From Agrobacterium fabrum str. C58 (GTDB taxonomy: Bacteria > Pseudomonadota > Alphaproteobacteria > Rhizobiales > Rhizobiaceae), in assembly GCF_000092025.1 (NCBI RefSeq), contig NC_003063.2, positions 930,001 through 994,000 of the forward strand: a stretch of DNA of 64,000 bases, written 5' to 3'. Position 1 is the stretch's first letter. Each line of letters opens with the position of its first letter. The position numbers were made by a program, and so were the translations under genes. Shown here piece by piece: positions 600 to 12,415 of this stretch. Under the pieces are notes generated by a model. It had not been told where the DNA came from. It did not search any database and saw only the letters and a list, made by a program, of their open reading frames with translations.

Positions 600-1295
600 T
601 TACCGCGTTATAAGCTCAAGCACGCCTTCGCTCATAATCTTACTGGTTATATGAGCGGTTTCAGAGATACGAATTTTCCACGCGGGAACGGTTGGATGCG
701 ATGAAAGAAACCCACCCACTTCCCCTCGACCAAGAAACGTGAGACTGAATGATGAAGTAGAGTCTTCGTTCATCCATCTCAAAATAACGCTCCCGTCGTC
801 TGGGTCAACTTCTGTCTCAGGTTCAATCACTTCCGCAGGTAATAAGGTTGTCACTGTCAATACGTCACGTAAGACAGAGTCCGGTGGAGGAACGGAGTTC
901 TCACCTGCCCAACCTGGCGTCAGGCGCCCAAGCTCGCGGATAATCTCTTCGCCCACACCGGCGTAAGGCGCCGTTTTCTGCTTATTGGTGTCCAAAACGT
1001 GGTTAGAGATTGCGGCATTATCATTGACGTTGTCCAACGCGTGTTTGAAAACGTCCGGCCACACTAAGGGAGCGAAGGTGCGGCGGTGTTTGCGAATAAC
1101 ACTAGGACGGTGAAAAGGCTCGCGTCTGATAGTCGACGAAATAATTGCTTCGGAATCAAGATCGTATTCGTCGTCCAAACTAAAGAAATCGATTACCTCA
1201 AGAGGCGCGTCCGCTTCGAACGCCAAACCCCTTCCCGCCAGCATGCCTTCCACAGCATTAGGGAATCTCTTTTCTGTACTATTATAGTTTGCCAT
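600..1295 (-). CDS. Hypothetical protein, second gene of the accessory operon
   Basis: A 231-residue soluble protein. Residues 1-90 are acidic and irregular; residues 115-200 carry a segment of the form LGxLxxGWAGENS...PPPDSVLRD followed by an alternating-strand region ending in a VILRW motif. That pattern (GWxGxxS plus a later strand ending in W) recurs in uncharacterised proteins scattered among proteobacteria; I know no function for it. The start overlaps the upstream gene's end by 14 bases, indicating translational coupling. With its neighbours it makes a compact operon in an otherwise mobile, AT-rich stretch, which fits a cargo or defence role, but this is inference from context only. 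Confidence 0.6.
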   Translation of the reverse strand: MANYNSTEKRFPNAVEGMLAGRGLAFEADAPLEVIDFFSLDDEYDLDSEAIISSTIRREPFHRPSVIRKHRRTFAPLVWPDVFKHALDNVNDNAAISNHVLDTNKQKTAPYAGVGEEIIRELGRLTPGWAGENSVPPPDSVLRDVLTVTTLLPAEVIEPETEVDPDDGSVILRWMNEDSTSSFSLTFLGRGEVGGFLSSHPTVPAWKIRISETAHITSKIMSEGVLELITR

Positions 1296-2067
1296 TGCTC
1301 TCTCCCAGACCTATGCGTTCGCTCATGTCACCTACGATCAATTCGCTGAGCAGCAACTTGTTTGATCTATGCAAAGCTTCCATTATTGATCCAAGAGCTT
1401 GGAAATCGTCGTCGAGAATATCTGCTAAAGCTAGATCTACGCCCGTATTTCTCGTTTGCACGTGTGTGATTTCGACACGGGCCTCGTCGCTTTGCCAAGA
1501 AACATCGACATCAAACGCGTGTAACGTGCGGACGTCCTTATTTTCTTCAATCATCCAACTGAAATAGGTATTCCAAGGGCCTATTGCATCAAGGACCGAC
1601 TGTGGCAGCTTGTCGCTACTCTTTAGCAAATTAGTGATGGAATAGCTCTTTGCATCTGATAGAAAGGCGTCCTTCACCATTAAGTTTACTGCGCTAACCA
1701 TTAGCTTTTCTTGCGCAGAGGCGAGGATTCGAATTGCATTTTGGAAATGCTCTCGGGCAATTCCCCAAGTCCGATCCCACCGAGAATAAATATAACACTC
1801 GATCTCAATTTGCGATGAGCCGATTTGCATCGACCACATTGGGGTCGCATCCGGTCTAAGAAAAGCAAACATTATCCCGGGAGCCTTGGTGGCGCGACCG
1901 TTCACATCTACGTCAATGTCGATAATGCGTTTCGCAGGCATTTCGTCTTGCCATAACGAATGCTGGCGCTCTATTTCAAATATGGCTTTCGGAGTGATTG
2001 GGCGCGTCAAAAGGAGAGCAAATTTCACGCTTTCAATAGCATGATCATCGTTTAGAGGCCTAAACAC
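1282..2067 (-). CDS. Hypothetical protein resembling the TIGR04255 group, first gene of the operon
   Basis: A 261-residue soluble protein, first gene of the three-gene operon. The N-terminus (residues 6-35) has a hydrophobic strand followed by a helix beginning at 'TPKAIFEIE', then a strand-rich middle (residues 45-105) and a helical region with a WNTYF motif near residue 165. Overall length and the strand-helix N-terminus recall the sporadically distributed TIGR04255 proteins, whose function is unknown; the match is an impression, not a search result. About 290 bases of non-coding sequence lie upstream (2,068-2,357), room for the operon promoter. The 3' end overlaps the next gene by 14 bases. 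Confidence 0.55.
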   Translation of the reverse strand: MFRPLNDDHAIESVKFALLLTRPITPKAIFEIERQHSLWQDEMPAKRIIDIDVDVNGRATKAPGIMFAFLRPDATPMWSMQIGSSQIEIECYIYSRWDRTWGIAREHFQNAIRILASAQEKLMVSAVNLMVKDAFLSDAKSYSITNLLKSSDKLPQSVLDAIGPWNTYFSWMIEENKDVRTLHAFDVDVSWQSDEARVEITHVQTRNTGVDLALADILDDDFQALGSIMEALHRSNKLLLSELIVGDMSERIGLGESNGKL

Positions 2068-3985: not shown

Positions 3986-5675
3986 ATGAATGAGCTTTGG
4001 TTCGGGGATAATCTTACCATTCTGAGAGAAGAAATCGCATCTGACAGTGTTGATCTGATTTACCTAGATCCACCTTTTAACAGCAATGCGAACTACAACG
4101 TCCTGTTTCGTACACCCTCTGATGAAGCCGCGAGCGCGCAGGTAGAAGCGTTCCGCGATACATGGACTTGGGGGAACGAAGCTCAGTGGGCTCTTGACGA
4201 AATAATTCTATCCGGCGGTCCCCGTAGCCAATATTATTCACGCACTGCATTCTGCACTCGGCGAGAGCGACATGATGGCTTATCTGGTTATGATGTCCCA
4301 ACGGCTATTTGAGCTGAGAAGGGTCCTACGATCGACAGGCAGCCTCTATCTCCATTGCGACCCAACCGCTAGCCATTACCTAAAGATCGTGCTCGATGCA
4401 CTTTTTGGTCCGCGCAATTTTCGCAGCGAAATTGTGTGGAAACGCACTAGCGCCCACTCGAACACCAAGGTTGGATATGGTGACGTAACAGACACCATTC
4501 TTTTCTATTCAGCGGGCCAGACACCAGTTTGGAACAAACTCTTCCAGCCGTTGGATGAGCGCCATGTGGCTGCAAAATACACTTATCTTGAAGAAGACGG
4601 TCGCCGATATTCCACAAGAGATCTGCGGAACCCAAGCCGGCGGCCCAACTTGCATTACGAATACAAAGGATATCAACCGCACCCAAACGGCTGGTCAATA
4701 TCGCGGGAATTGATGGAAAAGTATGACGCGGAGAACCGTTTGTACTTTCCCAAAAATATGGATGGTCGCATCCGGTTGAAGCTTTACCTAGACGATCAAA
4801 AAGGGCAGCCGCTACAGAACCTTTGGACAGACATTCCACCGCTTAATTCGCAGGCGCGGGAGCGATTGGGTTACCCAACTCAGAAACCTGTCGCATTGCT
4901 TAAGCGTATACTTGCTGCCTCTTCCAAAGAAAATGATGTCGTTCTGGATCCATTTTGTGGTTGCGGGACAACTGTCGCCGCGGCGCAGGAGACCGGAAGA
5001 AGGTGGATCGGAATAGATGTCGCTTATCACGCCATCCGTGTGATTGAGGGGCGGCTAAGCTCAATGCCTGGGGTTATTGATTATTCTCTCGGAGGCATTC
5101 CGAGAGATTTTGAAAGCGCCGCGCGGCTAGCCGCAAAAGACAAATATCAGTTTCAGTGGTGGGCGAACTATCTCGTCGGAGTCCAAACGATGAAAGAAAT
5201 TAAACGTGGACCCGACAGAGGCATAGATGGGCAAATGTATTTCATGAACGGTCCAAGGGGATGGGGAAGAGTTCTAACATCGGTCAAAGGCGGCCAACAT
5301 GTGGGCAGCAAAGATGTTCGGGAATTCAAAGCGGTCATCGATCGTGAGAGAGCCGAGATGGGCTTGTTCCTTTGCCTGAATGAACCAACACGTGATATGG
5401 CCACGGAGGCGGCAGCGTTCGGCTTCGTCCAAACAGCACACGGTCACCTCCCCCGATTGCAGATTGTGTCGATATCCGAGTGGTTTCGGGGGAAGCGCCC
5501 ACTGTTGCCCTCACTTGGTCATATCTCGCGCGAATTCTTTGAGCCGGAAAAACGCGCCAAGCAGAAGAAGGGAAAAGCCCCAGACCCTAACGCACCCGAA
5601 TTCACTTTCACTTTTCAGGGGGCAAAATCCGAAAGTACGGTCGTTCATTTCAACCCGGTGGCTGTAAAAGCTTAA
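3986..5675 (+). pseudogene. Frameshifted DNA methyltransferase fused to a nuclease-like domain
   Basis: Two overlapping reading frames together make one protein of about 563 residues. The first frame (3,986-4,312) opens with the catalytic DPPF motif (residues 28-31) of beta-class amino-methyltransferases. The second frame carries the target-recognition region and the SAM-binding DPFCGCGTT motif near 4,947. The frames join if one C is removed from the CCCC run at 4,220-4,223, which restores a continuous VANIIHALH-type segment. After the methyltransferase, about 5,200-5,420 encodes GPDRGIDG ... TSVKGG, which fits an Mrr/PD-(D/E)XK nuclease core, so the ancestral protein may have been a one-chain restriction-modification or modification-dependent enzyme. 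As sequenced it is broken; a sequencing error or slippage-based switching are alternatives. Confidence 0.75.
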
Positions 5676-5739: not shown

Positions 5740-6127
5740 TCAAACACTGTACTTTCTCTTTGGCGCATCCGGGAATATGACGTCGCGGGCTTGTACCCGA
5801 GGTAGCCGCCCAAGGTGGTTTGGGTATATTCGGACGCGACAGACCCGCGTTACGCCCATCCTCAAGGCATCGCCGAACAGCTTCAGGCCGTTGCCCTTCT
5901 GGTTGGCTGCGTCGAGCTCGTAAGCCATCACGTTCGACGAGCCGCGCTTGAAACCGCCGATCTGGCCGATCTGGCTTGCGTCTCGGGCCTGAAGACGGCT
6001 GTTCTCACCGAGCACGTCGCCGAAGGCCCGGAGCCTGCCGAGTGCCATGCCTGTCTTGTCCGTGAAATCGCGGGCCTTGGTGCGCTGCTTCTGCTCTTCG
6101 GCAACAACGACGTTGTTCGCCGATGCA
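5740..6127 (-). pseudogene. Truncated copy of internal virion protein gene
   Basis: This is a 5'-truncated, internally shortened duplicate of the gene at 9,216-9,896. The two share long near-identical stretches in the minus strand, including GRLRAFGDVLGENSRLQARD, FKRGSS and ELDAANQKGNGLKLFGD. Homology starts near 6,127 at the NNVVV codons, with no start codon context, and runs to a matching C-terminal PKRK-SV end at 5,740. Between, the glycine-rich GLGGIG part of the intact copy is lost and the spacing altered. It lies just downstream of the broken methyltransferase. Its presence shows that a segment containing the 3' end of the virion gene was duplicated or recombined here. Confidence 0.75.
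5740..6127. repeat. Direct repeat copy A (virion gene 3' end)
   Basis: About 390 bases that match 9,216-9,617 in the same orientation, with scattered substitutions and one deletion of roughly 25 bases. The pair brackets about 3.1 kb of unrelated genes. The match was made by eye, so percent identity is not given. Confidence 0.75.
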
Positions 6128-6249: not shown

Positions 6250-6504
6250 TCACCGGGCAAATATCGCGTTGTGGAAGTCGTCTTCAGTTGGCTCGCCTGC
6301 CCTACCTTGGCGGGCCTGCTCAAGTGTTCGCAGCCATGCTTTACGCCCTGCGATTTGTCCTGCTTTCATCGCGTCATCGAACTGCTGCGATGCGCGCTTC
6401 GGCGAGCGAAGCCCTGTTGCGCGTGCCTTGCGCTGCCATGGCCTTGAAACGGCTACCGATTTAGAGCGACCCCGCGCTTGCATTACGGTTAATAAGCTAC
6501 GCAC
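6250..6504 (-). CDS. Small hypothetical protein or gene remnant
   Basis: An 84-residue ORF rich in Arg and Lys in its first half and ending with a more protein-like acidic helix (TEDDFHNAIFAR). A start at 6,483 is also possible. It is followed by an AT-rich stretch and the truncated virion copy. The composition of the last 50 residues suggests the 3' end of a real gene, perhaps a fragment stranded by the rearrangement that created the nearby duplication. No family recognised; it may not be expressed. Confidence 0.3.
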   Translation of the reverse strand: MRSLLTVMQARGRSKSVAVSRPWQRKARATGLRSPKRASQQFDDAMKAGQIAGRKAWLRTLEQARQGRAGEPTEDDFHNAIFAR

Positions 6505-7094
6505 TACTTATACAGTTCCTTGAGCACGAGCCAAAACAGGATGCTAATTTCGTACTTGTTGCAACCGTAGCCATTGAAGTGGCCTGCGATACCCATTGCA
6601 TGACCGAATTCATGGATTACGGTTGAAACCGATGCTCTGCCTTTTTCGCTATCGATGTTTAGATAAAGGAGACAGTCAAAGTTCCCGTTAACGTCAAGAA
6701 TATTAGTGGGGTATCCCACGGACTTTGGCGATCCGCTGACATGACCTTTTACGTGCTCTGCCGCCATACTCCCATTTCCGATGGCGGTCCCGTACGATAC
6801 GACTATACCATTAGAGCCATTCGTCAGGCTAGACATCGAGCAGCGGTCGAACAATGTCCTGCTCAATCTCTTCTCTATGCGCCGCATCGCGGTAGCAACG
6901 CGATCATCTTTTGGGTCGTCATAGACCGGGATCAGATTTTTTCTGGTATCCCAAATCTTTCGTTTACCAACGTACTGCCCGTAGAAAGGGAAGCCCTCAA
7001 CGTTGGCGTTGTGGTCTCTAATGATAGCAGAAACATTATCTGGAGACGTATCCAGATCATATGCCAAAAGCTTTCGGAACCAATCAATGTTCAT
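6504..7094 (-). CDS. Metzincin-like zinc protease domain protein
   Basis: A 196-residue protein with no signal peptide. Residues 162-173 read HEFGHAMGIAGH, a zinc-protease signature of the HExxHxxGxxxH kind: two histidines and the catalytic glutamate are in the standard positions, and the third histidine is one residue further out than the strict metzincin spacing, as in some bacterial matrixin-like proteins. The region before the motif contains strand-forming sequence typical of a metzincin upper domain. The C-terminal 22 residues end abruptly with a hydrophobic helix, so the protein may be truncated. It is transcribed away from the gene starting at 7,437 and may share the intergenic control region. 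As a predicted cytoplasmic protease in a cargo slot it could be an effector or an anti-host factor; that is inference. Confidence 0.55.
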   Translation of the reverse strand: MNIDWFRKLLAYDLDTSPDNVSAIIRDHNANVEGFPFYGQYVGKRKIWDTRKNLIPVYDDPKDDRVATAMRRIEKRLSRTLFDRCSMSSLTNGSNGIVVSYGTAIGNGSMAAEHVKGHVSGSPKSVGYPTNILDVNGNFDCLLYLNIDSEKGRASVSTVIHEFGHAMGIAGHFNGYGCNKYEISILFWLVLKELYK

Positions 7095-7436: not shown

Positions 7437-8579
7437 ATGACTTTGATCCTCGACCCGGCTATGCGGGTAATCGACAAAAACCACCAGATATTCATTTTGC
7501 ACCCCGGCGACGGCAAGCGGTTCTATAACGACTTCCGTGCAACCAGTATGGTATTTCTGGATATCCCAGGTGCTATTTTGCCTACCTCGTTTGATATCGA
7601 CGACGAGAAGACCAGACAACAGTTGCGTATGTCCAGATCTGTTGGCGGCTGGTACAAGGGCGGCAGACCCGCCACACGTGTACCTTCACGCAAAGCTGAG
7701 GATTACAAGGTTTCTGCAGAGGGAAGGGATGCGCCTCGCTATATGCGAGAAGTGAAAAACCTTTACGAAGATGCCAAGCCCGGGGATCTCGTTATCATTC
7801 CAGGACCTGGGTATACTTCAGAGGTTCTTTTCGCTGAAATCCTAGAACCATTCGTGTCTGATGTCTTCGCAGAGGTTGCGCGATACAATTTTGAGAAAAT
7901 ACCTGCACGCCGCGTGAAGTTTCTGAAGGGATCGCACGCGAAATATGAATTTGGTAGGCGCGCTATCAAACTGATGCAAAATCGCCAAGCTATTATTCGC
8001 GTGAGCGATGACGCAGACCGTCACGAGTTTTACGAGCACGCCTACGGTGACTACGTTCGTGGCGAAAGCTCCGGAAGCTACATGGAAGTTACGAAGGCCG
8101 TGGTCGACCAGAAAGACCTGACCGACGTTCTGTTTCTGACTAATTATTTTGGAGCGATGTACGTCGCGCTAAAAGCTGGCGAACTGGAAAACTTCATCGC
8201 TCTGTCCGAGAAAAGCCTGCATAAGGGATTGAACGCTTATTATAACAGAGAGTTATTCGGCGACATCTCAATTGAAGTCCACTCTCCTGGTTTTTTTGGA
8301 AGAGCGTTACGTGATCCTGCGATGGCTGGATTTGTTGCAGCTATGACCGTAATGGCTACTCTAGCAATCGATCCCGTGATGGCAACGCAGCTTGTTGTCG
8401 AGAACTCCGCTAACAGCCACCAATCAGTTTGTGATATGACTTTGCAGGAAGACATTCGTTCAACCATGCAGATCGTAACAAACTCCCATCTCTGGTGGGA
8501 CGAATTGTGCGAGATGCAGAAAGAAGCATCTGAGCAGGTTGGGCTTAAGACAAAATCAAAGGTTATCGACAAACCTTAG
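7437..8579 (+). CDS. Hypothetical protein, first gene of candidate two-gene system
   Basis: A 380-residue protein. Residues 10-60 begin with strands reading IFILHPGDGKRFYNDF. Around residues 105-135 the segment KPGDLVIIPGPGYTSEVLFAEI resembles the small beta-barrel (PUA/EVE-like or 'GDLVVVP') modules that sit at the front of some restriction-type proteins, though I cannot confirm the fold. The middle third is helical. Residues 285-320 hold a hydrophobic helix (MAGFVAAMTVMATLAI) that may be buried or membrane-interacting. The C-terminus is charged and helical. A gap of 51 bases separates it from the membrane protein gene at 8,631, so the pair is probably an operon. No family recognised. Base composition is lower in GC than the chromosomal part of the window. 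Confidence 0.6.
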   Translation: MTLILDPAMRVIDKNHQIFILHPGDGKRFYNDFRATSMVFLDIPGAILPTSFDIDDEKTRQQLRMSRSVGGWYKGGRPATRVPSRKAEDYKVSAEGRDAPRYMREVKNLYEDAKPGDLVIIPGPGYTSEVLFAEILEPFVSDVFAEVARYNFEKIPARRVKFLKGSHAKYEFGRRAIKLMQNRQAIIRVSDDADRHEFYEHAYGDYVRGESSGSYMEVTKAVVDQKDLTDVLFLTNYFGAMYVALKAGELENFIALSEKSLHKGLNAYYNRELFGDISIEVHSPGFFGRALRDPAMAGFVAAMTVMATLAIDPVMATQLVVENSANSHQSVCDMTLQEDIRSTMQIVTNSHLWWDELCEMQKEASEQVGLKTKSKVIDKP

Positions 8580-8630
8580 GCAACCGAATAAGACGCCCCA
8601 TATTATGTTGGTCTCGAAGGGAGATCATGA

Positions 8631-9143
8631 ATGGAACGACTTTTAGAGCTTGCGCGCAAATATATCGTTCTAGCCCTCGGATCTGTCGCCAGCCTTTTTG
8701 GCGTTGTTGGAACCGGGCTAGGGTATGTCTTCGCCATTGAGCAGGCCCGTGTCGAACGTTTTGAAACAAACATGCTCTCGGAATACAAGGCTGTCGCGAC
8801 GTCCAAAAAGAATTTTTATAGCGTCTTAGATAAGTTCACAGCGGAACTTTACCTTAGTGGAAAACCCGACGACGCTCTAGTTTCGGAGATGAACCAAAAA
8901 ATATTGGAACTCCATCAAAGTGTTGACGTATTCAGCGTCGGTTTGAGTGCAGATGATAGAGCTAAAATTTCAGCAGTTAAGACCGCATTGGCTAGCATGA
9001 AAACCGAGATCGCGCGCGCTAAGTCAAAAGCAGATTTGCCTTACATTGCCGGAAGCCAAGTTCAATTCGAGACTGCGTATAAAGCTGTGACGCCTATTGT
9101 CGAACGCAAAATTGGCATTCCTAATGAAATGCTCTCTGGCTGA
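8631..9143 (+). CDS. Membrane-anchored helical protein, second gene of candidate system
   Basis: A 170-residue protein with one N-terminal transmembrane helix (about residues 11-34, glycine-rich, GSVASLFGVVGTGLGYVF) followed by a long charged helical domain, predicted coiled-coil-like from residue 36 onward. A GGGAG ribosome-binding site lies eight bases before the ATG. One membrane helix plus a soluble helical domain is a common layout for small membrane effectors or for structural partners of a cytoplasmic sensor, but nothing here proves such a role. It ends about 70 bases before the convergent virion-protein gene. Confidence 0.6.
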   Translation: MERLLELARKYIVLALGSVASLFGVVGTGLGYVFAIEQARVERFETNMLSEYKAVATSKKNFYSVLDKFTAELYLSGKPDDALVSEMNQKILELHQSVDVFSVGLSADDRAKISAVKTALASMKTEIARAKSKADLPYIAGSQVQFETAYKAVTPIVERKIGIPNEMLSG

Positions 9144-9215: not shown

Positions 9216-9617
9216 TCAAACAGTAGACTTACGCTTAGGGGCCTCTGGAAAGTAAGACGCGGGCAGGGTATAGCCCAAATGCTCGCCCAAAGTCGTTTTC
9301 GTATATTTTGGACGGGACAATCCCGCATTGACACCTATGCCACCTAAACCGCTGAGCACGTCGCCGAACAGCTTCAGGCCGTTGCCCTTCTGGTTGGCTG
9401 CGTCGAGCTCATACGCAGTCACGTTCGAAGAGCCGCGCTTGAAACCGCCAATCTGGCCGATCTGACCTGCATCGCGTGCCTGCAGACGGCTATTTTCGCC
9501 GAGCACGTCACCGAACGCCCGGAGCCTGCCGAGCGCGGTCCCTGTCTTGTCCGTGAAATCGCGGGCCTTGGCGCGCTGCTTCTGCTCTTCGTTGACAACG
9601 ACGTTGTTCGCTGACGT
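9216..9617. repeat. Direct repeat copy B (virion gene 3' end)
   Basis: The 3' part of the intact virion-type gene, matched by the truncated copy at 5,740-6,127 in the same orientation. Recombination between the copies would delete the metzincin-like gene and the two-gene pair. Confidence 0.75.
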
Positions 9618-9896
9618 CGGCAAAGCTGCTTCGGCGCTCGGCTCGGCAACCTGTTGACCGGTGAAATAGTCGGCCAGCTTGGAGGCGGCCTTCTCTTCCT
9701 GTCCGGAAAAGTCCTGGTAGCGATCCTGCGACTGCGCGTTAAGCGCCTGTGCTTCCTGATCGAGGCCGTTCTGCCGGATCCGCTCGGCCGCCATGGCGTC
9801 GTCACGGGCGCGGGCAACCTTGCTGGCGGCCATGCTGTTGGCGACGGTGGAACCGGCCGTGAGAGCGACGCCGGCAATGGTCAACGGATCGCACAT
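9216..9896 (-). CDS. Internal virion protein-like (podophage gp14 type)
   Basis: A 226-residue protein that begins MCDPLTIAG followed by a small, Ala/Gly-rich hydrophobic segment (residues 8-25) and a long Gln/Ala/Asp-rich helical middle. This layout, including the MCxP start, matches the internal virion protein B (gp14-like) proteins of T7-like podophages, which are ejected with phage DNA to build the channel across the cell envelope. The C-terminal third has GLGGIG and a tail ending PKRK. It is the only obviously virion-type gene seen, so it is either a prophage remnant or a gene kept by a satellite. The 3' end exists in a second, truncated copy at 5,740-6,127. Recognition is by pattern only. 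Confidence 0.6.
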   Translation of the reverse strand: MCDPLTIAGVALTAGSTVANSMAASKVARARDDAMAAERIRQNGLDQEAQALNAQSQDRYQDFSGQEEKAASKLADYFTGQQVAEPSAEAALPTSANNVVVNEEQKQRAKARDFTDKTGTALGRLRAFGDVLGENSRLQARDAGQIGQIGGFKRGSSNVTAYELDAANQKGNGLKLFGDVLSGLGGIGVNAGLSRPKYTKTTLGEHLGYTLPASYFPEAPKRKSTV

Positions 9897-9916
9897 GTTA
9901 CGTTACCTCTTGTCGA

Positions 9917-10429
9917 TCAGTGGAGCTCTTTCGGGGCAACGGCGGGGTTTCCGCCCACAATTCTCCGCTCGCGAATTCGGCGGCCAATGCAAAACCCTTC
10001 AAACAGGTAGCGGCCAGCGCGAATGAATAAAATTTCCTCTTCGTTGGCACGACGCCTCGTCCCCCCGCCTTGAAGTATGGTGCAGGCCGCCGAAAGGCAC
10101 CAACTGACCCATTCGCTATTCAAGTCGGGAGGGGAGGCGGAGACACCACCCTGCAATTCTTCAATCAACCGCGTCGCGTCTTCGATCACATCGGGAGTTA
10201 GCGATATGCCTTGCATCCCCATTATCTCAAGGCCTTCTAGAGCTCTGGCAAACGCATCGCCAGCTTCGTCGCCATCGGCAAGCGCAAGCCGCAGAAGTTG
10301 CAGCAGGCCGCGCCCGAAATCGTGGGGCTCAAGATCACCCCATGGAAAATCGGTCATAGACACGTTCCGCGCCATAAGCGATGAGGTTACGCTTCTTCCG
10401 TCAGGTCTATTGGGCGGTCTCGGGGTCAT
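9917..10429 (-). CDS. Hypothetical island protein
   Basis: A 170-residue soluble protein. I place the start at 10,429, where ATGA overlaps the stop of the upstream gene; starts at 10,375 or 10,357 would also give a plausible protein beginning MARN or MTDF. The sequence is helical, with an acidic region (residues 30-60), a PDVIEDATRLIEEL helix, and a basic C-terminal segment around 150-160 (RRIRERR). It is followed 20 bases later by the virion-type gene on the same strand. Not recognised. Confidence 0.5.
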   Translation of the reverse strand: MTPRPPNRPDGRSVTSSLMARNVSMTDFPWGDLEPHDFGRGLLQLLRLALADGDEAGDAFARALEGLEIMGMQGISLTPDVIEDATRLIEELQGGVSASPPDLNSEWVSWCLSAACTILQGGGTRRRANEEEILFIRAGRYLFEGFCIGRRIRERRIVGGNPAVAPKELH

Positions 10430-10944
10430 GCTGCGGTCCGCCTGATTATGTCTGCGATCACGTCGGCACGGCGCTGGCCGGCCCTTCGAACAATATCTTC
10501 GAGCAGGCAAAGGTTGTGGCATGTGTTCCGCAACCAACGGGCATATGCTTGGAAATCCGCGAAGAGGTGTTTGTGCCGGGTATCGCGCGCTTCGTCGGTT
10601 TCGGCCCACCAGCAAATCAAGCCGGCAACGGCGTCCACAGCTTCCGCCGCAGTGGGCCATTCCCGTGACGCATCAAACAGGCGCAATATTGACGTGTGTG
10701 CCATCGCAAGCGATCGCAACAGCCTGTCCCTTTGGGTCGGAGAAATCCGGGCATGCCGGCGTGACGTTTCGGTTTGAAGAGAACACAGGGCTTCGGACAA
10801 ATTGAACGCTTGTTCCGCGCCGGCCGCAACGCGAGCGAGGCAATCGCAAAGCCAACCAATCTTGTGCTCAAGCTCAGTCGGCTCGGGCGAAGCTTCGCAG
10901 CCAAGGGGCGGCAGTCCGTTATAGTCGAGTTCCTGATCGTTCAT
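10426..10944 (-). CDS. Hypothetical island protein, coupled to the next gene
   Basis: A 172-residue, all-helical protein, starting at the MNDQ codons at 10,944 (an adjacent ATG at 10,947 is possible). Residues 20-55 form an acidic-hydrophobic helix pair (ELEHKIGWLCDCLARV), residues 62-90 are rich in Arg and Ser (a possible nucleic-acid contact), and the C-terminus ends with VIADIIRRTAA. The stop overlaps the start of the downstream gene by four bases, so the two are likely translated together. Similar length and helical layout to the downstream protein hint at a pair acting together. Family not recognised. Confidence 0.5.
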   Translation of the reverse strand: MNDQELDYNGLPPLGCEASPEPTELEHKIGWLCDCLARVAAGAEQAFNLSEALCSLQTETSRRHARISPTQRDRLLRSLAMAHTSILRLFDASREWPTAAEAVDAVAGLICWWAETDEARDTRHKHLFADFQAYARWLRNTCHNLCLLEDIVRRAGQRRADVIADIIRRTAA

Positions 10945-11335
10945 CATGATTTGAAAGATAGTTGGCGAGTAACCGCGAATATAGCGGGCGATATCCTCGC
11001 GCGTTTCGCGGTAACCAGCTTTGCAAGTTTGAAAAGTTCCAGCCTCGCGCGATTTTGTGCCGGATCCCGGCGTGCCGCTCCGGCTGCAATTCAGAGTATA
11101 CCCAGGGGGCGGGGTGCGTGTTCGCGTACGCCACACAGCAATTAAGCATTCGTTCTTGAATATAGATGCTGCATTATTCGTATCTTAATGTTGCACGCAT
11201 CAAAATACATTGACCGACAATATTTATTTATACTATCAGTTCGTCAAAATTAATGCAGGAATATGGAAATTTACTGTTGACTTAAAGAACCATGTAAAAG
11301 AATCTAGCAGCACAACAGTCTCGAAAGGTGCTGCT
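10945..11335. promoter_or_regulatory. Divergent intergenic region
   Basis: About 390 bases between a minus-strand pair and the plus-strand gene at 11,336. The right half is AT-rich. A TTGACT hexamer at 11,278-11,283 could be the -35 of a plus-strand promoter. No repeat or dyad stands out. Confidence 0.25.
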
Positions 11336-11629: not shown

Positions 11630-11782
11630 CGCTTTCGCGAGAGTTTAGGATGATTTTTTTGGGTGTACCTCAATCGAACCGCTTTCACAGCCTCAAGAAG
11701 CCGCAGGGATCGATTATTGGAACCACTCAAAACAGACTACTACTTTAGGAACTATTCAAATCGAACCGTGGAGGTTTCAAAC

Positions 11783-12415
11783 ATGTTTGTCCGCGCTTAT
11801 CTGCGAGCCAGCACCAAAGAACAGGATGCAGGCCGCGCAAAAACACAGCTGGAAAGCTTCGCAAAAGACAGAGGTTTTTCGATCGCTGCATTCTATGTCG
11901 AAAATGAAAGCGGCGCGTCGCTGAAGCGTCCGGAGCTTTTTCGGCTACTCTCGGACTGCAGCCCGAACGACGTGTTGCTGACAGAGCAGGTTGACCGGCT
12001 GTCGCGACTTAATGAGGCCGATTGGGAGGCGCTCAAGAGCGAGATAGACGCGCGACAGGTGCGCGTCGTGGCTCTTGATCTTCCCACGTCGCATATGATG
12101 TTGGCCGCTGCCGAAGACCCATTTACCGGCCGCATGTTCAAGGCCGTCAACGCGATGATGCTCGATATGCTGGCAGCAATCGCGCGCAAGGATTATGAAG
12201 ACCGTCGCCGGCGGCAGGCGCAGGGCGTCGAGAAGGCGAAAAGCTCGGGACGCTATAAGGGGCGGCCAGAAGATACGGACCGCAACGCAGCGCTGATACG
12301 CATGCTGAAATCTAAAATGAGCTGGAACGACATCGTCACCGCGACCGGCTGCTCAAGGTCCACGCTCTTCCGCCTTGCCCGGCGTATCAAAGAAGACGCG
12401 CTGGCCAAAGCATGA
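11783..12415 (+). CDS. Serine recombinase (resolvase/invertase family)
   Basis: A 210-residue protein of the small serine recombinase family, which cuts DNA through a serine and exchanges strands by rotation. Residues 5-14 read AYLRASTKEQ, containing the catalytic serine (S10) in the usual Y-x-R-x-S setting; residues 60-80 have the EQVDRLSRL motif; a basic region (YEDRRRRQAQGV) leads into GRYKGRPED and a C-terminal helix-turn-helix (WNDIVTATGCSRSTLFRLARRI). Length matches resolvases and invertases rather than the large serine integrases, so it more likely resolves or inverts than integrates the island. The ATG at 11,783 has a GGAGG site. Its last four bases overlap the next gene (ATGA). Confidence 0.9.
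   Translation: MFVRAYLRASTKEQDAGRAKTQLESFAKDRGFSIAAFYVENESGASLKRPELFRLLSDCSPNDVLLTEQVDRLSRLNEADWEALKSEIDARQVRVVALDLPTSHMMLAAAEDPFTGRMFKAVNAMMLDMLAAIARKDYEDRRRRQAQGVEKAKSSGRYKGRPEDTDRNAALIRMLKSKMSWNDIVTATGCSRSTLFRLARRIKEDALAKA

Follow-up and report, generated by a model that had tools for sequence, protein, structure and literature searches.

Within a 64,000-nucleotide stretch of the Agrobacterium fabrum str. C58 genome (NC_003063.2, positions 930,001 to 994,000; hereafter, the window), two neighboring genes encode proteins of 380 (P1) and 170 (P2) amino acids that could form a phage defense module acting like RexAB of phage lambda, with a nuclease-free nucleic acid reader signaling to the predicted membrane protein P2. 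We put this reading, which is drawn by analogy, at slightly below an even chance. The sensor-plus-membrane-protein layout that had been suggested in a first-pass annotation of this DNA fits the predicted reader in P1 and the predicted membrane protein P2.

Both open reading frames (ORFs) are present where the first-pass annotation had placed them, separated by the gap that it reported (Table 1). A Shine-Dalgarno-like sequence, GGGAG, lies in this gap directly upstream of the P2 start, and the terminator scan listed no terminator-like site on the plus strand there. The signature that had been used to label the first protein, GDLVIIPGPGY, corresponds to P1 residues 116-126. The AT-rich composition that had been noted is apparent as well, with a GC content of 0.47-0.48 in the two kilobases of the pair vs 0.535-0.650 per kilobase beyond 18 kb of the window. 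Purifying selection acts on both genes: the nonsynonymous and synonymous substitution rates (dN/dS) between the closely related loci L021 and L022 are 0.020/0.669 (∼0.03) for P1 and 0.063/0.651 (∼0.10) for P2. Because of these low ratios and because homologs exist (70 proteins at 34-99% identity listed for P1 and 10 for P2, the window's own included in each case), P1 and P2 are genuine coding genes rather than chance ORFs. Scanned singly against Pfam, PHROGs, PADLOC and NCBIfam, neither protein gave a match worth naming, the best stray match of P2 being Csx28 (NCBIfam, E 0.036).

The two genes are adjacent in all 22 full-length loci, the window included, with gaps of -4 to 83 nucleotides; this set omits L009 and L023 (which nearly or fully duplicate L008 and L006, respectively) and L035, in which P1 is truncated. 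The distance matrices of P1 and P2 correlate at 0.868, a value that was reached by none of the 2000 permutations. A P2 profile (A2), in which no row is identical to any P2 of loci L002-L013, matches the ORF downstream of P1 in 12 of these 12 loci and does not match it in L014 and L016. In the distant loci L014, L026, L027, L034 (a larger stretch surrounding L016) and L036, the P2 position is occupied by an ORF of 157-185 amino acids, and in L020, the P2 frame is open behind P1 and was recovered by translation though absent from the ORF listing. Given the constant adjacency and the correlated divergence, the pair behaves as one unit, so that the proposal of a two-gene system is borne out by the very co-occurrence elsewhere on which it had been staked. 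A separate case is L035:9257-9838, a P1 remnant of 193 amino acids that spans the reader region, lacks P2 and looks like a decayed copy; its end overlaps the start of an RTX/pectate-lyase-like ORF by 4 nucleotides.

The N-terminal half of P1 is predicted to be an EVE/YTH-like reader domain. The AlphaFold model has a mean pLDDT (predicted local distance difference test) of 87.1, and of the 21 ten-residue blocks that cover residues 1-210, 15 reach 90 or more; together with the VIA-align rows it places this half in the fold of the PUA superfamily of EVE, YTH and ASCH readers; the Foldseek E value alone is not significant. The small beta-barrel-like motif noted previously does exist and is best seen as a piece of this predicted domain, and the label ‘unrecognised' does not hold for this half of P1. 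No Pfam match to the EVE family (PF01878) was found, and comparison with seven EVE proteins using hhalign yielded P values of 0.13-0.63. The N-terminus of P1 is, however, linked by sequence profile to the N-terminal domain of the PDC-S02/Mrr-type restriction proteins (hhalign P 1.9e-7, controls run). The corresponding PADLOC model, PDLC04815, matches the P1 relative in L036 with an E value of 4.5e-6 and does not match the window P1 by itself. The Mrr_cat nuclease domain is present in all five PDC-S02 proteins scanned; no nuclease domain (Mrr_cat, HNH) is among the Pfam matches of P1, P2 or 29 P1 proteins (all 11 families), or among 25 of the 31 Pfam families listed for 19 P2 proteins. The PDC-S02 proteins themselves (L055-L061) are of the Mrr type with an extra N-terminal domain that, by way of P1, is probably PUA-like.

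Binding of modified bases by the predicted P1 reader is plausible. In the EVE-HNH endonuclease VcaM4I, flipped 5-methylcytosine or 5-hydroxymethylcytosine is held between P24, W82 and Y130 (PMC7897488). Conservation was assessed in 128 of the 132 P1 sequences, four shorter than 330 amino acids having been dropped. Across these relatives, P44 is invariant (128/128) and residue 150 is Tyr or Phe in 126; judged from the order of the elements, P44 and Y150 may correspond to P24 and W82 of VcaM4I, and no P1 counterpart of Y130 was found.

In 124 of the 128 relatives, the center of the most hydrophobic 19-residue segment of P1 falls within reference residues 288-318. The segment is moderately hydrophobic (median of the means 1.69; at least 1.6 in 77 relatives), and it is preceded by an SPG motif in which S283 and G285 are invariant and P284 is kept in 126 sequences. 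Basic residues (K+R) average 1.79 before the segment vs 0.41 after it, and acidic ones (D+E) 0.73 vs 2.20, with more K+R before than after in 117 relatives, equal numbers in nine and fewer in two. Judging from these sequence features, P1 is probably anchored in the membrane near its C-terminus, with the reader in the cytoplasm; alternatively, the segment could be a buried helix. The tail that follows is predicted to be periplasmic and is possibly disulfide-bonded: Cys332 and Cys358 are both kept in 126 relatives, and 83 of the 128 proteins contain exactly two cysteines. The most distant relative, in L036, keeps a hydrophobic segment and lacks the cysteines. The first-pass annotation had described a hydrophobic central helix in a cytoplasmic protein; the helix actually lies at residues ∼294-312, near the C-terminus, and resembles a membrane anchor, which makes ‘cytoplasmic' an unlikely description of the P1 protein in its entirety. 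In a viral structure library, P1 matches an uncharacterized Myoviridae sp. ctEBR14 protein (Foldseek E 3.9e-14, query TM-score 0.52, 11% identity over 380 columns), and because this structural relative is full-length, the whole architecture of P1 is probably also found in a phage.

P2 is predicted to be a single-pass membrane protein with a helical bundle. In its AlphaFold model (mean pLDDT 74.7), residues 1-34 are below 50 and the blocks in 51-160 are at 85-92, so that, of the membrane helix and long charged helix described previously, the former is retained as a prediction with low model confidence, and the remainder is modeled confidently as a bundle. In all 23 P2 proteins checked (L009 in addition to the 22 loci), the start of the most hydrophobic 19-residue segment falls at residues 7-25; its mean hydrophobicity ranges from 1.29 to 2.32 and exceeds 1.6 in 10 of the 23. 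The K+R content is similar on the two sides of the P2 helix, so that either orientation is possible. Structure comparison yielded generic helical bundles as the sole kind of match. The pore-forming membrane protein Csx28 of type VI-B CRISPR is weakly matched by the narrow A2 profile, in the N-terminal half of P2 (E 0.0066); the match is gone with the wider profile A4, and no search for CRISPR neighbors was made. Among the 19 P2 relatives, one shows a weak resemblance to a holin family (E 0.16). A 429-amino acid ORF in two genomes from another genus of the order (L018, L019) is a weak match to columns 21-102 of the P2 profile (E 2e-4 and 3e-4), which could reflect either a P2-like helical region within a larger protein or chance.

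P1 relatives are sporadic. A wider P1 profile listed 120 proteins, and the named organisms (Rhizobium, Ensifer, Mesorhizobium, Methylobacterium, Thioclava, Sulfitobacter, Paracoccus and others) are all, as we take it, alphaproteobacteria. Relatives were found in 2 of the 397 genomes of the order (the own genome included), 3 of 385 of the class (one truncated) and 2 of 299 of the phylum; these samples overlap, the own genome and G117 recurring, so that only three different genomes are behind the counts. Among 36 other genomes of the genus, one has a relative, a distant one. The window P1 matched none of 50,697 phage records, and the L036 relative gave chance matches only in the phage collection and no relative in the viral contigs. 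Two of the 72,556 plasmid records carry P1 relatives, and viral contigs are the source of six loci, of which one is the same stretch as L006; the pair is found on chromosomes as well. The mobile location that had been assumed for the pair is consistent with this pattern.

In the proposed mechanism, P1 would be held in the inner membrane by its near-C-terminal helix, with the reader facing the cytoplasm, where it would capture phage DNA or RNA that bears a modification or some other mark; the capture would alter the contact between the membrane or periplasmic part of P1 and P2, and oligomeric P2 would then perturb the membrane such that the infection is stopped or aborted. We infer here nucleobase binding and the target recognized, as well as the P1-P2 contact, the membrane effect and the anti-phage activity of the pair. 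The model for this scheme is RexAB, for which opening of the membrane protein RexB by the DNA-binding RexA has been proposed (PMC12894663). Shared with RexAB of lambda and the RexAB-type system of Pseudomonas putida are adjacent genes on mobile or prophage DNA and a nucleic acid-binding sensor combined with a small membrane protein as the proposed effector; in contrast, RexB of P. putida has four predicted membrane helices (PMC12894663) and P2 has one, and P1 has a PUA-type reader and probably a membrane helix of its own. No Rex family is among the Pfam matches of P1 and its relatives or among the 25 of 31 Pfam families listed for P2 relatives; RexA is not among the structure-match rows of P1 either, which does not exclude a RexA likeness. 

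Other known systems share parts of this arrangement. The PDC-S02 proteins have an N-terminal domain of ∼150 residues that is profile-related to P1, but end in the Mrr_cat nuclease in all five scanned, whereas P1 differs in its C-terminal half and has P2 as its constant partner. The predicted fold of P1 residues 13-204 resembles EVE-HNH endonucleases such as VcaM4I, YTH/EVE readers and the McrB reader of Thermococcus gammatolerans, but no nuclease or GTPase domain and no detectable EVE sequence similarity was found. The CoCoNuTs similarly combine YTH-like readers with helical or coiled-coil partners in type IV-like systems, but contain a McrB GTPase and nucleases (PMC11090510), none of which was found in P1-P2. 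A more specific account, which we consider possible although doubtful, is that the pair branched off from type IV restriction and works without a nuclease: an Mrr/EVE-type modified-base reader would have been redirected to the inner membrane and combined with a periplasmic tail bearing a disulfide and with a dedicated membrane protein as partner, so that the anti-restriction base modification of the phage would trigger a membrane response instead of cleavage.

The predicted membrane location of both P1 and P2 would also suit superinfection exclusion, in which a mobile element-borne inner-membrane pair blocks phage DNA entry, much as Kiwa or SNIPE act at the injection site, and the reader merely holds DNA. 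Some loci are in viral contigs and some neighboring ORFs are phage genes; in addition, Kiwa (KwaA-KwaB) consists of a membrane protein and a DNA-binding partner, and both Kiwa and SNIPE join a DNA-binding part to the inner membrane (PMC12904381). This possibility appears rather unlikely, given that the reader superfamily of P1 serves modified bases (PMC7897488) and that no similarity to Kiwa turned up in PADLOC or Pfam: the former gave no family for P1 and P2 and PDC-S02 as the sole family among 29 P1 proteins, and Kiwa is absent from the Pfam matches of P1, P2 and the P1 relatives.

The viral contigs, together with the location of a relative pair on a 6.3 kb plasmid and the weak holin resemblance, could also point to housekeeping of a prophage or plasmid, whereby P1 would read the methylation of the element or the host and, with P2, tether the element to the membrane or time lysis or induction. 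The sporadic distribution is more cargo-like, and we regard this role as unlikely. Least probable, in our assessment, is a toxin-antitoxin-like pair, in which P1 would silence a membrane toxin, P2, until titrated by foreign nucleic acid: the pairing is tight, the divergence of the two proteins is correlated and P2 is small with one hydrophobic segment, but P1 is the first gene in the order, large, conserved and itself probably membrane-bound, and no toxin family was found in the single-protein scans, nor does one appear in the 25 families listed, of 31, for P2 relatives.

One relative pair, that on the 6.3 kb Methylobacterium plasmid, is accompanied by a recombinase gene; another is on a Thioclava plasmid that also bears genes for a nucleotidyltransferase and a SAVED-domain protein, the latter 7.6 kb away, which we take to be of the CBASS (cyclic oligonucleotide-based antiphage signaling system) type. 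Reading of the ORFs shows phage-type genes beside the pair at some loci and, in at least one locus (L004), a sugar-transport operon on one side. In the window, the methyltransferase-Mrr frame (N6_N4_Mtase E 5e-38; C-terminal Mrr_cat E 2e-5) looks broken and ends ∼1.8 kb upstream of P1. The repeat copy at 5870-6123 is a partial copy of gene 9216-9896 on the minus strand, and the cargo seemingly lies between the two copies. It includes ORF 6504-7094 (minus strand, 196 amino acids, divergent from P1), which contains the zinc metalloprotease-like HEFGH motif (HExxH) and weakly matches Pfam M43 (E 0.11). Stretch 9216-11160, beside the pair, was not found in 36 other genomes of the genus except for two matches of ∼30 bases. 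Farther away, ORF 1282-2067 (minus strand) belongs to the TIGR04255 family (E 6e-28) and adjoins two unassigned ORFs, 48-587 and 600-1295.

Table 1. The P1-P2 pair and surrounding features, in window coordinates
Feature	Position	Strand	Basis
P1 gene, 380 aa, ATG start	7437..8579	+	ORF
Predicted PUA-superfamily (EVE/YTH-like) domain, P1 residues 13-204	7473..8048	+	predicted fold
Predicted transmembrane helix, N-in/C-out, P1 residues ∼294-312	8316..8372	+	hydrophobicity, charge bias
C-terminal tail, P1 residues 319-380, with Cys332 and Cys358	8391..8579 (Cys codons 8430-8432, 8508-8510)	+	
P1-P2 intergenic gap, 51 nt	8580..8630	+	sequence
P2 gene, 170 aa, ATG start	8631..9143	+	ORF
Predicted transmembrane helix, P2 residues ∼12-34	8664..8732	+	Kyte-Doolittle 2.05 over residues 12-30
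Predicted antiparallel helical bundle, P2 residues 30-161	8718..9113	+	AlphaFold
Methyltransferase-Mrr reading frame over two overlapping ORFs	3986-4312, 4272-5675	+	
Direct repeat, 254 nt, 90% identity; copies flank the pair and ORF 6504-7094	5870-6123 and 9361-9614		
Resolvase, same segment as the pair	11663-12415		
Primase/AAA gene, same segment	14097-16394		
tRNA-Ser gene, near the end of this segment	18179-18268		

The open-access literature on EVE/PUA/YTH-type or type IV readers, including those with membrane effectors or transmembrane proteins, was represented by reviews, restriction papers, the EVE/DCD survey and the CoCoNuT papers, and work in other wording or sources may be missed. 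The word ‘transmembrane' is absent from the EVE/DCD survey (PMC7641849), and the P1-P2 pair is not described in the CoCoNuT passages covered (12 of 15; PMC11090510). A sensor with a membrane partner is an already known layout; what would be new, if the mechanism holds, is a reader from the type IV world that lacks a nuclease and is coupled to the membrane.

Neither Pfam nor NCBIfam contains a model for the P1-P2 family, and the pair is a compact unit of 1.7 kb that is small enough for cloning. The link between P1 and PDC-S02 may help interpret the latter, an unvalidated candidate family of PADLOC. Phages modify bases to evade restriction, and bacteria counter with modification-dependent nucleases. 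If the proposed mechanism is correct, bacteria could respond to base modification without cleaving DNA, and nuclease inhibitors of phages would not block such a strategy. The model predicts that protection requires both genes and depends on how the phage is modified. The pair would then represent a new kind of coupling, between the recognition of modified bases and membrane-based immunity.
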